From Terriglobia bacterium (lineage in GTDB: Bacteria > Acidobacteriota > Terriglobia > Acidiferrales > UBA7541), in contig JAIQGC010000011.1 of assembly GCA_020072805.1 (NCBI GenBank), positions 1-53,610 of the forward strand: a DNA stretch of 53,610 nucleotides. The letters are read 5' to 3'. This document shows, piece after piece, positions 21,141 through 24,530 of this stretch. Under the pieces are notes generated by a model. It made no database searches. It saw nothing but the letters and a program-made list of their open reading frames with translations, and was not told the origin of the DNA. Made by a program: the position numbers and the translations under genes. The stretch's first letter is position 1; every line of letters starts with the position of its first letter.

Positions 21141-21455
21141 GGGACTGCTCCCTGGAAAGCCCGCTCTTGATTGCTCAGGGATGAACACAGCCAGTTTCGA
21201 AGGAATGGTCATTCGTGACGAGCAGGCAGTCCTCTAATGGCCAATTTATTTGTTCTTGCAAGAGGGGAGCCATCCGCGAAGGCCGCTGCTCCTCGCAGGC
21301 CATTTAAATTCAACAGGTTGGTCCATCCGGTGAGGGGGTGAGAGGGAATTCGCCCATTTCCCGCGGCAATTCACAAGGCCTCTGCGTCAAACGGCTCACG
21401 GCGCCGAAAGTCTTGCTCTCGGCCGCTGTGCATGCGCGGTCTCTCGCGCACATCC

Positions 21456-21887
21456 TCATTCCTTTTCCGGATTCCCCTCCGCCTTGGCGAACTCCCGCGC
21501 CAGCTCCGCATGCTCCAGCACCACCGCCGCGTCCCTCTGCATAGCCGCGTAATATTTCCTCTGGAGAGTATCGCCCGTCTCCGTCGGCGTGAACATCTTT
21601 GCCGCCATCGCCACAAACCCCTTGGCCTCCGCTTCCCCAAGAAAAACTTCGCCGTCCAGCAGTTCGTCAATGCGCACTACGAACTCCGAGATCCCGTGCA
21701 GCCAGGCAAACTGCTCGTGGTCCACCACCAGGCGGAACAACTCCCCCGCGTTCACCCGCCCGTGCTCCTTTTCGTAATCCCGCCGCTCCATCTCCAGCAG
21801 CGCCTTGTGCACACGCAGCAGCGCCTGCCGCAGCGCGATCAACGGTTCTCGCCCCGCGCCGCCCCCTTTTCCCTCTCCCAGTGCCAT
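21456..21887 (-). CDS. conserved-looking hypothetical protein, helical
   Basis: A 143-residue protein started at the ATG at 21887, which follows GAGGTGGGCAGG, a good ribosome binding site. The sequence is largely helical ([57 protein letters not shown]) with no transmembrane segment. The pattern 'LLxLHKxLLDxER..YE..xG' recalls small cytosolic proteins seen in many bacteria, but I cannot name the family. Divergent from the DAHP-synthase gene. Confidence 0.7.
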
Positions 21888-22009
21888 CCTGCCCACCTCG
21901 CTCTCCTCTATTTTCCGCCACCCCGCTCCCCGATTTCCACTCCCCCCGCCCCTCCTTCTCCGCGTGACGCCGCGCCCTTTTTCAGGCAAAATAGAGACTT
22001 CCGGAGCAC

Positions 22010-22069
22010 ATGCCCACTCCTGGGGAGTGGGTTTTTTCATTTGCCAGCGGAGGAAAGGTTTTTTCTTAG
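22010..22069 (+). CDS. putative leader peptide of the DAHP-synthase gene
   Basis: ATG at 22010 after CCGGAGCAC opens a 19-codon [22 protein letters not shown], ending TAG at 22067-22069. It has one Trp and three Phe, a high aromatic fraction for an enzyme that starts aromatic amino-acid synthesis. Its early codons overlap the terminator hairpin and its stop touches the GGGGA before the DAHP-synthase start at 22081. The Shine-Dalgarno spacing is short. It is a candidate only: the overall frame through 22081 is also open, so alternative explanations exist. Confidence 0.35.
22013..22037 (+). terminator. intrinsic terminator/attenuator upstream of DAHP synthase
   Basis: Perfect 8-bp stem CCCACTCC (22013-22020) / GGAGTGGG (22024-22031), loop TGG, then six T (22032-22037). 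The gene upstream is transcribed the opposite way, so no plus-strand message needs to end here. The position, 44 nt before the DAHP-synthase ATG, fits a transcription attenuator. Confidence 0.6.
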
Positions 22070-22080
22070 GGGAACAGGCC

Positions 22081-23127
22081 ATGATTATCTCGATGAAGCT
22101 GCACGCCACCCGCGCGGAGATTGACGAAGTTCGCCGCCAGGTCGAGCACTTCGGCTACAAAGTCCATTCCATCGAAGGCGAAGAGCGCGTGGTCATTGGC
22201 GTCGTGGGCGTCGGCGATGTCACCGCCTGTTTCGAATCCGTCGAGGCCATGCCCCAGGTCGAAAACGTCGTGCGCATCTCCGCCCCCTACAAATTCGTCA
22301 GCAGGGAATTCCGCAAGGACCGCACCGTCATCCGCGTCAACGGCGCCGAAATCGGCGGCGCGGAATTCGCGGTCATGGCCGGGCCCTGCTCCGTCGAATC
22401 CGAAGACCAGATCATGCGCGCCGCCGAAGGCGTGGCCCGCGCCGGCGCCAAATTCCTGCGCGGCGGCGCCTTCAAGCCGCGTACCTCCCCCTACGATTTC
22501 CAGGGAATGGAGGAAGCCGGCTTGAAACTCCTGCAGAAAGCCAAGAAAGCCACCGGCCTGGCCATCGTCACCGAAATCATGGGCGACCGCGAAGTGGAAC
22601 TCGTCGCCCAGTACGCCGACATCATGCAAGTCGGCGCGCGCAACATGCAAAACTTCGTCCTGCTCAAGGCCCTGGGCAAGTGCGGCCGCCCCGTGCTCCT
22701 CAAGCGCGGCATGAGCAGCACCGTGAAAGAACTCCTCATGTCCGCCGAATACATCGTGGCCCACGGCAATTCCGAAGTCATCCTCTGCGAACGCGGCATC
22801 CGCACCTTCGAAACCGTCACTCGCAATACCTGCGACATCGCCGCCATTCCCGCCCTGCAGGAGCTCACTCACCTGCCCATCATTCTCGACCCCAGCCACG
22901 CCACCGGCCGGCGCAGCCTCGTTCCCGCGCTTTCCCGCGCCGGCGTGGCCATCGGCGCCGACGGCCTCATCGTCGAAGTCCACCCCGCCCCGGAAAAAGC
23001 TGTCAGCGACGGCGCGCAATCTCTCGATATCCCACAATTCCAGCAGATGATGCAGGACCTGCAACCCTACATCCAACTTTGGAACGACTCCCGCAAAAAG
23101 CAACTGACCGCCGCCGCGGCCCGCTGA
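22081..23127 (+). CDS. aroF: 3-deoxy-7-phosphoheptulonate (DAHP) synthase, type I-beta with N-terminal regulatory domain
   Basis: A 348-residue enzyme that condenses phosphoenolpyruvate and erythrose 4-phosphate, the first step of the shikimate pathway. Residues 1-75 form an ACT/ferredoxin-like domain of the kind that binds Tyr or Phe for feedback control in Thermotoga-type enzymes. The barrel carries AGPCSVES (100-107), [47 protein letters not shown] and [10 protein letters not shown]. The start at 22081 has GGGGA seven bases upstream. A terminator-like hairpin and a short aromatic-rich ORF precede it. The aroF symbol is used in the general sense of this subfamily. Confidence 0.95.
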
Positions 23128-23249
23128 TTCTTTTGCGCTCGGAACTTCCGGCGGCTTTCCAGCGCCGCCTCACCGTTTTGTTGCAAGCTGCGGCATCACA
23201 GTAAATTTGCCCCATTCCGGGCGAGAGAAGCCGGGTATCCCTGATCTCC

Positions 23250-24530
23250 ATGCACCCTACCGCCGCGGCGCCGCCGCCATCACCGCAAAAACCGTTCTAC
23301 GCAATTTTGTGGGTCCAGGTCGTGGTGGCCATTGTTCTGGCCGTCGCCCTCGGCTATTTCAGCCCTGCCAAAGCCATGGCCATGAAGCCCCTCGGCGACG
23401 CCTTCATCCGCCTCATCACCATGGTCATCACTCTGGTCATCTTCTGCACCGTCGTCTCCGGCATCGCCGGCATGCAGGACATGAAGAAAGTCGGCCGCGT
23501 CGGCGGCAAGGCCCTGCTCTATTTCGAAGTCGTCTCCACTCTGGCCCTCTTCATCGGTCTGCTTGTCGGCAATCTCGTGCGCCCCGGCGCGGGCTTCAAT
23601 GCCAATCCCGCCACGCTCGACGCCGGCGCCGTCTCCGCCTACGCCGGCCAGGCCAAAGCCCAGACCGTCACCGAATTCCTCATGCACATCATTCCCACCA
23701 CCGTGGTCAATGCCTTCGCCACCGGCGACATCCTCGAAGTCCTTCTCGTCTCCATCCTCTTCGGCCTCGCTCTATCCGCCATCGGCCCGCGCTGCAAGCC
23801 CCTTCTCTCTGTCTTCGACGCCCTGGCCCATGCCGTTTTCGGCGTGGTCAATCTCCTCATGAAGTTCGCCCCCATCGGCGCTTTTGGCGCCATCGCCTTC
23901 ACCGTCGGCAAATACGGCCTCGCTTCCATCGGTCCTCTGCTCAAGGTCATTGCTACCTTCTACATCACCTCTATCCTCTTCGTTCTCATCGTCCTCGGCG
24001 CCATTGCACGCGCCGCCGGCTTCCGCATTCTCAAATTCCTCGCCTATATCAAGGAGGAAATCCTCATCGTCATCGGCGTCAACGCCTCCGAACCCGCTCT
24101 CCCCTCGCTCATGGCCAAGCTGGAAAGCCTGGGCTGCTCCAAGTCCCTCGTCGGTCTCGTCGTCCCCGCCGGCTATACCTTCAACACCGACGGCAGCAGC
24201 CTGTACATGACCCTCGCGGCTCTCTTCGTCGCCCAGGCCACCAACACTCCCCTCACCCTGCTGCAGCAGTTGACCATTCTCGCCGTCGCCACGCTCACGT
24301 CCAAAGGCGCCAGCGGCGTTCAGGGCGCTTCCTTCATCGCCCTCGTTGCCACCCTCACCGTCGTCCCTACCATTCCCGTTGCCGGCATGGCTCTCCTTCT
24401 GGGCATTGACCGCTTCATGAGCACCGCCCGCGGGCTGGTCAATGTCATCGGCAACGGCGTCGCCACCCTCGTCGTGGCGCGCTGGGAAGGCGAATTCGAC
24501 CGCAAATCCCTGCAACGCATCCTGGGCTGA
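23250..24530 (+). CDS. dicarboxylate/amino acid:cation symporter (DAACS family)
   Basis: A 426-residue inner-membrane carrier of the GltP/DctA fold. Family motifs are visible: [22 protein letters not shown] near residue 48, [19 protein letters not shown] in TM7 and [19 protein letters not shown] in hairpin 2-TM8. These symporters take up glutamate, aspartate or C4-dicarboxylates with protons or sodium. The NTDG form of the usual NLDG/NMDG motif and the lack of neighbouring two-component genes do not allow the substrate to be decided. It follows DAHP synthase by 122 nt but is probably transcribed separately. Confidence 0.93.

Follow-up and report, generated by a model that had tools for sequence, protein, structure and literature searches.

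A terminator before a DAHP synthase gene in Terriglobia as the probable remnant of a ribosome-mediated attenuator

The stretch of DNA analysed here (the window) is 53,610 nucleotides of contig JAIQGC010000011.1 from a Terriglobia bacterium (assembly GCA_020072805.1). Its plus strand carries a DAHP synthase gene at 22081..23127, which contains a ferredoxin-like domain (PF18152) and a DAHP_synth_1 domain (PF00793). The nearest upstream gene, of unknown function, is divergent (21456..21887, minus strand), and a gene for an SDF dicarboxylate symporter follows downstream (23250..24530, plus strand). The upstream region holds, all on the plus strand, a -35-like GTGACG (21964..21969), a -10-like CAAAAT (21987..21992) and a GGAG (22003..22006) that is Shine-Dalgarno-like at short spacing, lying 3 nt 5' of the ATG of a 19-codon ORF (22010-22069). 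The ORF encodes Trp7, Phe9, Phe11 and Phe18, and its stop is separated from the gene by 11 nt. Within it, CCCACTCC-TGG-GGAGTGGG at 22013-22031 forms a perfect 8-bp stem directly followed by six T (22032-22037); a second run of six T is found at 22059..22064. An intrinsic terminator is thus present before a biosynthetic gene, with 49 nt between the stem and the start codon. The first-pass annotation had described the aromatic ORF ending just before DAHP synthase and the overlapping hairpin with six U, and all of this was borne out.

Taken alone, a single terminator-like site is weak evidence, because five such sites were counted in 21400-23300 against 2.1 (sd 1.4) in shuffles. The 85-nt stretch 21998-22082 was found to fold with z = -2.47. 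The core of the stem, CCCACTC/GAGTGGG, is intact, and the 3.98-Mb window genome (G000, 99.77% complete) contains CCCACTC-N2..9-GAGTGGG once, at 22013-22031. The composition of the ORF peptide is unremarkable: its best nine-codon window holds three aromatics, a level equalled or exceeded in 77 of the 256 regions that lie upstream of other long open frames at the same set of loci.

Relatives of the DAHP synthase gene were collected at 111 loci (several being the same place twice), giving 84 distinct upstream regions. Loci L079, L053, L083, L094, L104 and L107 were skipped in the leader scan owing to a partial match or a short upstream region; the rest comprise 64 orthologs at >=65% identity and 14 loci with lower identity. 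At least five aromatic codons among nine were found in 42 of the 64 orthologs, against 0.9% of dinucleotide shuffles and none of the 256 other upstream regions; at least four were found in 51 of 64, against 9.1% of shuffles. L080, one of those 51, has no terminator and is probably a chance case. The orthologs with fewer than four aromatics are L002, L003, L032, L043 (whose leader starts beyond the 330 nt taken upstream), L057, L058, L063, L068, L071, L074, L084, L085 and L101. A terminator-like hairpin precedes 54 of the 64 orthologous genes, against 7.1% in shuffles; L093 was scored without one despite a visible CCCACTCGG hairpin. These 54 include four without the core motif, L003 (a hairpin with no proper T-run), L032 (another hairpin), L085 and L091, so that the core motif itself stands before 50 of 64 orthologs, the window included. 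Among the 14 loci below 65% identity, four have at least four aromatics, two have at least five and three have a terminator. The relatives L068, L071, L074, L080, L085 and L101, which lack the aromatic leader, were observed to share an approximate upstream motif, TACACCA with (A)GTGGTG some 5-8 nt further on.

The family has a common layout, with an aromatic-dense short ORF (for example MICVAHSYWFRFSGPPD, MNARLANSYWWYRFTWHPSGWRGVFL and MRRSAHNSFRFWYWFSA), a G-rich segment, a hairpin of the form CCCACTCG-loop-CGAGTGGG or similar that is followed by a T-run, and then the gene. Phe and Tyr are encoded in 48 of 48 leaders and Trp in 47 of 48; the leader thus appears to read each of the three aromatic amino acids, fittingly for the enzyme that opens their common pathway. 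Start sites were scored in 47 of the 48 loci used for the pairing analysis below. In 38 of these 47 loci, against 9% in shuffles, a TAnnnT hexamer ends 4-12 nt 5' of the leader start codon; one locus has a Shine-Dalgarno-like sequence before the leader. The position of the hexamer and the near-absence of Shine-Dalgarno sequences indicate predicted transcript starts at or close to the start codon, and the leader is therefore probably leaderless or nearly so. A rare Arg codon is kept inside the aromatic run: CGA followed by TTT or TTC occurs in 40 of 48 leaders, CGATTT is invariant (columns 48-53) in alignment A1, which comprises the leaders of 25 of the 26 genus-group loci (L047, with a longer leader, was left out), and CGA accounts for one of 130 Arg codons in six window genes. 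The conserved CGA is a candidate pacing codon or RNA constraint.

The segment that follows the aromatic codons can pair with the 5' arm of the terminator, as in CGAGTGG-c-GTTGGT with ACCAAC-CCACTCG outside the genus. Applied to the leader alignments, RNAalifold returned the terminator and, in A1, two pairs at columns 75/83 and 76/82. Because mutually exclusive helices cannot show in one consensus, duplexes were tested locus by locus, in 48 loci with L080 and L091 excluded. Of the 48 loci, 26 have an antiterminator duplex (2:3) better than in shuffles at p<=0.05, and 20 have one at p<=0.01. Counted by hand, the p<=0.05 cases number 19 of 22 loci outside the window's genus group and 7 of 26 within it. 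For the 1:2 pairing, which would free the terminator, support is weak, with p<=0.05 in 13 of 48 loci and p<=0.01 in five. The terminator core is nearly invariant and offers no covariation, the outer pairs alone varying with compensation; the near-invariance is plausibly explained by segments 2, 3 and 4 sharing the same letters. Taken together, the anatomy of the intact family is consistent with switching by the logic of the trp attenuator.

Two covariance models, R2 built from 25 genus-group leaders and R1 from 22 others, were used to follow the family across genomes. R2 gave a full-length match in 31 of 36 genus genomes. The five without one are G000, where the window hairpin alone gave a weak partial match (19.6 bits; 18.9 bits with R1), G009, G007, G005 and G014; the last two have no close ortholog (best identities 51% and 48%), their genomes being 86% and 63% complete. 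About 100 of the 299 class genomes, counted by hand, have a full-length R1 match with E<1e-6, that in G287 not lying before DAHP synthase. DAHP synthase is the next gene at 12 of 12 genus loci and at 29 of the 30 best class loci, the remaining one, L146, having too little DNA 3'. Leaders of the same logic in other letters were also seen before DAHP synthase in two Planctomycetota (L096:2671-3000 and L097:489-818), with GYWYGLTFWF and KYWFGFWF and, for segments picked by eye, 13-pair antiterminators of -27.6 and -22.2 kcal/mol; these are perhaps convergent with the acidobacterial ones.

What does the window retain of this family? No aromatic leader was found 5' of its hairpin, the best nine-codon window there holding two aromatics, and neither R1 nor R2 matched a leader in the window. 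Nor was an antiterminator for the 5' arm of the hairpin found upstream in the window, the best duplex being equalled by 109 and 165 of 500 shuffles. Elsewhere in G000, no intact leader was found by R1 or R2. The other R1 match in G000 is a terminator after an aldehyde dehydrogenase-like gene, and of the weak R1 matches elsewhere in G000, G007 and G009, the three examined (L188-L190) were read as lying before genes other than DAHP synthase. For two of the paralogous DAHP synthases of the window genome (L113 and L114), inspection of the upstream sequence by eye revealed no aromatic leader.

In the gene tree, G000 groups with G009 and G007 (loci L003 and L032) with support of 100/99, and the sister group of this trio (99/95) consists of the other 27 genus rows, all of which come from genomes with a full-length R2 match. 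Of the six outgroup rows, four have the leader, and none was recognised in L057 and L058. Since the trio forms one clade and the 27 sister rows and four outgroup rows bear the leader, the simplest reading is that the leader was lost once; the case for loss over gain rests on these four outgroup rows together with the wide spread in the class. The neighbourhood has changed as well. Among the 111 loci, the divergent gene and the SDF symporter are neighbours in the window, L003 and L032 only, apart from a 28% symporter match in L109, and of two ORFs found upstream at L034, one has counterparts at 20 and the other at 19 of 30 genus loci, with neither present at the trio loci; some of the loci compared have short flanks. 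The gene has therefore been moved or its surroundings replaced, with the break falling between antiterminator and terminator, and we infer this relocation to be the cause of the leader loss. An assembly artefact is unlikely, the arrangement being common to two other genomes.

The GTGACG-17-CAAAAT pair (21964-21992) is common to the window, L003 and L032 in both sequence and spacing, and its -10 element ends 20 nt 5' of the hairpin. A consensus promoter scan of 21400-23300 listed no promoter-like site, the pair falling below its threshold; we take the shared pair as a putative new promoter that replaced the old one. The hairpin itself has fared differently among the three. In the alignment the T-run is gone in L003 and L032, and hairpin and T-run occur together in the window alone; read by eye, both relatives still allow a stem of 6-7 pairs, that of L032 with a G-U pair and mismatched ends. 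The eighth stem pair is C-G in the window and G-C in relatives; together with a stem left intact after the leader loss, this could point to continued use. Directly after the decayed hairpin, L003 carries a REP-like palindrome, GTTGACCGCnnnGCGGTCAC, and L032 a slightly altered form; 178 copies were counted in G009, 157 in G007 and 72 in G005, with 0-7 in the other 33 genus genomes, among which G000 has none. The ORF at the same start site is open for 17 codons in both relatives: in L003 (ATG; MPAHSKRALLTASRSQK) it encodes no aromatics, and in L032 (TTG; MPAPSQWEWLTALRSPR) it encodes Trp7 and Trp9. Its stop lies 66-67 nt before DAHP synthase in the two. Translation of the short ORF in the window clade is possible on this evidence.

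Overall, the window hairpin and its T-run are probably the terminator (segments 3:4) of a classical ribosome-mediated attenuator that has lost its front part, a reading we hold with good though not full confidence. In the intact family, whose mechanism is read from anatomy, the transcript would begin with the leader start codon or a few bases 5' of it. The leader has about 14-33 codons, and its core strings together Phe, Tyr and Trp codons. A ribosome passing the aromatic codons would leave CCCACTC to pair with GAGTGGG, and transcription would stop. When aromatic amino acids are scarce, the ribosome would stall, CGAGTGGCGTTGG or GCGAGGGGCG would be free to pair with CCCACTC, and with the antiterminator formed, RNA polymerase would read on into DAHP synthase. 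In the window clade the gene has new neighbours, and the leader, the antiterminator arm and presumably the old promoter are gone, so that in the window the remaining terminator would stand about 20 nt behind the new promoter-like pair. Because leader and antiterminator are lost, the window hairpin cannot sense amino acids by the classical route. Most likely, it is today either a leaky brake under no regulation or a relic that is tolerated. The three-genome clade is thus a natural experiment on the fate of a biosynthetic gene whose attenuator was cut in two.

One alternative is that the hairpin was kept for another job after the leader loss, for instance to shield the mRNA at its 5' end or to adjust how much the short ORF is translated. 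The perfect window stem, and the stems that can be drawn in L003 and L032 despite their lost T-run, would fit such a role. However, only three sequences bear on it, the L032 stem is imperfect and palindromic repeats directly follow in both relatives, and we regard this alternative as unlikely.

The first-pass annotation had proposed a compact attenuator, in which a ribosome translating the 19-codon ORF and stalled at Trp7/Phe9 would cover the hairpin and allow read-through when aromatic amino acids are scarce. In its favour, an ATG stands at the hairpin base behind a closely spaced GGAG, the 3' arm and T-run supply codons for Trp and Phe, and the ORF at this start site is open in L003 and L032. 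However, in all 50 loci that carry the core motif, this frame yields [E/G]W[V/A/G]F as it crosses the terminator 3' arm, so that Trp7 and Phe9 come with the terminator, that is, with its 3' arm and T-run. The test needs GAGTGGG or GGGTGGG, which fixes [E/G]W; its free observations are the motif in 50 of 54 loci and Phe two codons later in 50 of 50. Phe11 and Phe18 derive from the T-rich tail and the second T-run, and a start codon lies within 30 nt upstream of the terminator frame in 10 of 50 loci, being ATG in the window alone. The Trp/Phe peptide is thus, as far as sequence can tell, largely a by-product of the hairpin's own letters. L003 has none of the aromatic codons, and both relatives lack the T-run. 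In addition, judged from general rates, polymerase setting out from the nearby predicted transcript start would already have arrived at the T-run by the time a ribosome could load. The proposal of a stalled ribosome as sensor was not upheld and is very improbable here. A leader embedded in the hairpin also gave way to the classical design of the relatives, whose aromatic leader lies upstream of the hairpin and was lost in the window. What stood of the attenuator idea is that the hairpin descends by homology from an aromatic-reading attenuator before DAHP synthase; what fell is the 19-codon ORF as its sensor. Conservation in relatives, to which the annotation had pointed, is likewise divided: the hairpin core is widely kept and the ORF start partly kept in L003 and L032, whereas the aromatic codons are inconsistent and the U-run is lost in both.

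A related possibility is that the orphaned terminator found a new use in this lineage, its W-V-F codons being turned by the ATG at the hairpin base into an embedded sensor and hence a one-hairpin attenuator. Because the ORF is kept open in L003 and L032, this embedded-sensor reading was given more weight, and descent by loss of the leader less, than they would otherwise have had; even so, it has very little probability, like the compact design. Translational coupling by the 19-codon ORF was ranked low, its stop lying so far from the gene in L003 and L032; in the available excerpt of one source (PMC4833913), short leader ORFs peak at a stop-to-gene distance of 11 nt. Finally, a chance terminator-like sequence unrelated to the family is extremely improbable: such sites do occur in about 7% of shuffled upstream regions and the window matches the terminator part of the family element only, but the exact 7+7 family core lies in the same place before the same gene and at no second place in the genome, and the nearest upstream gene is divergent, so that the hairpin is not the terminator of a plus-strand gene, nor is there a T-run on its minus side.

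A second candidate attenuator was seen in the same genome. In G000 (L182, reverse strand, ORF from base 1118), an aspartokinase gene is preceded by a terminator and a short ORF rich in Thr, MISTSAKRITTATTTSKTSTTWMCTIFAFGAGRNS, and the window organism probably uses attenuation. A classical-looking arrangement, with a Thr/Ile-rich leader and a strong terminator before aspartokinase (AA_kinase), was found in G035 (L160:124-262) and G034 (L159); in L160, a semialdehyde dehydrogenase gene follows aspartokinase. Searched at the DNA level, the G035 copy found matches in 34 of 36 genus genomes, in G005 and G020 around the terminator only, and none in G000, whose own copy is too diverged.

How does the acidobacterial family relate to known systems? 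An Rfam search of the window and 11 relatives returned one tRNA only and no leader at gathering score, Trp_leader (RF00513) included; this model scored 18.3 bits in L034 against a gathering threshold of 41. No description of the family was found in Rfam or the searched literature, which took in few subscription journals and not the comparative survey of Lopatovskaya et al. (2010). The intact family is apparently an undescribed case of classical ribosome-mediated attenuation, absence of a description being no proof of novelty.

The E. coli trp and pheA attenuators combine a leader peptide, mutually exclusive 1:2, 2:3 and 3:4 pairings and an intrinsic terminator. By its anatomy, the intact family shares with these systems, as far as the available part of PMC11802643 describes them, a leader of regulatory codons and the terminator, and would share the exclusive pairings, for which 1:2 is weakly supported. 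Unlike them, it stands before another gene and would read all three aromatic amino acids. The S. meliloti trpL, in the available part of PMC7298713, is a leaderless attenuator RNA that begins with the ATG of the leader itself, much as is predicted for the intact family. However, trpL is the Trp leader of trpE(G), and the acidobacterial transcript starts are predicted ones. For C. glutamicum, an attenuator of aroR-aroF was reportedly described by Neshat et al. in 2014. It is likewise ribosome-mediated and lies before DAHP synthase, with aromatic codons (Phe-Tyr-Phe) in its leader, according to the available parts of PMC4046766 and PMC11802643. The likeness is one of description: C. glutamicum belongs to a different phylum, the acidobacterial leaders combine Phe, Tyr and Trp in long runs, and the window copy has no leader. 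Among the described systems found, and as these sources portray it, aroR-aroF would be the nearest functional analogue to the acidobacterial family.
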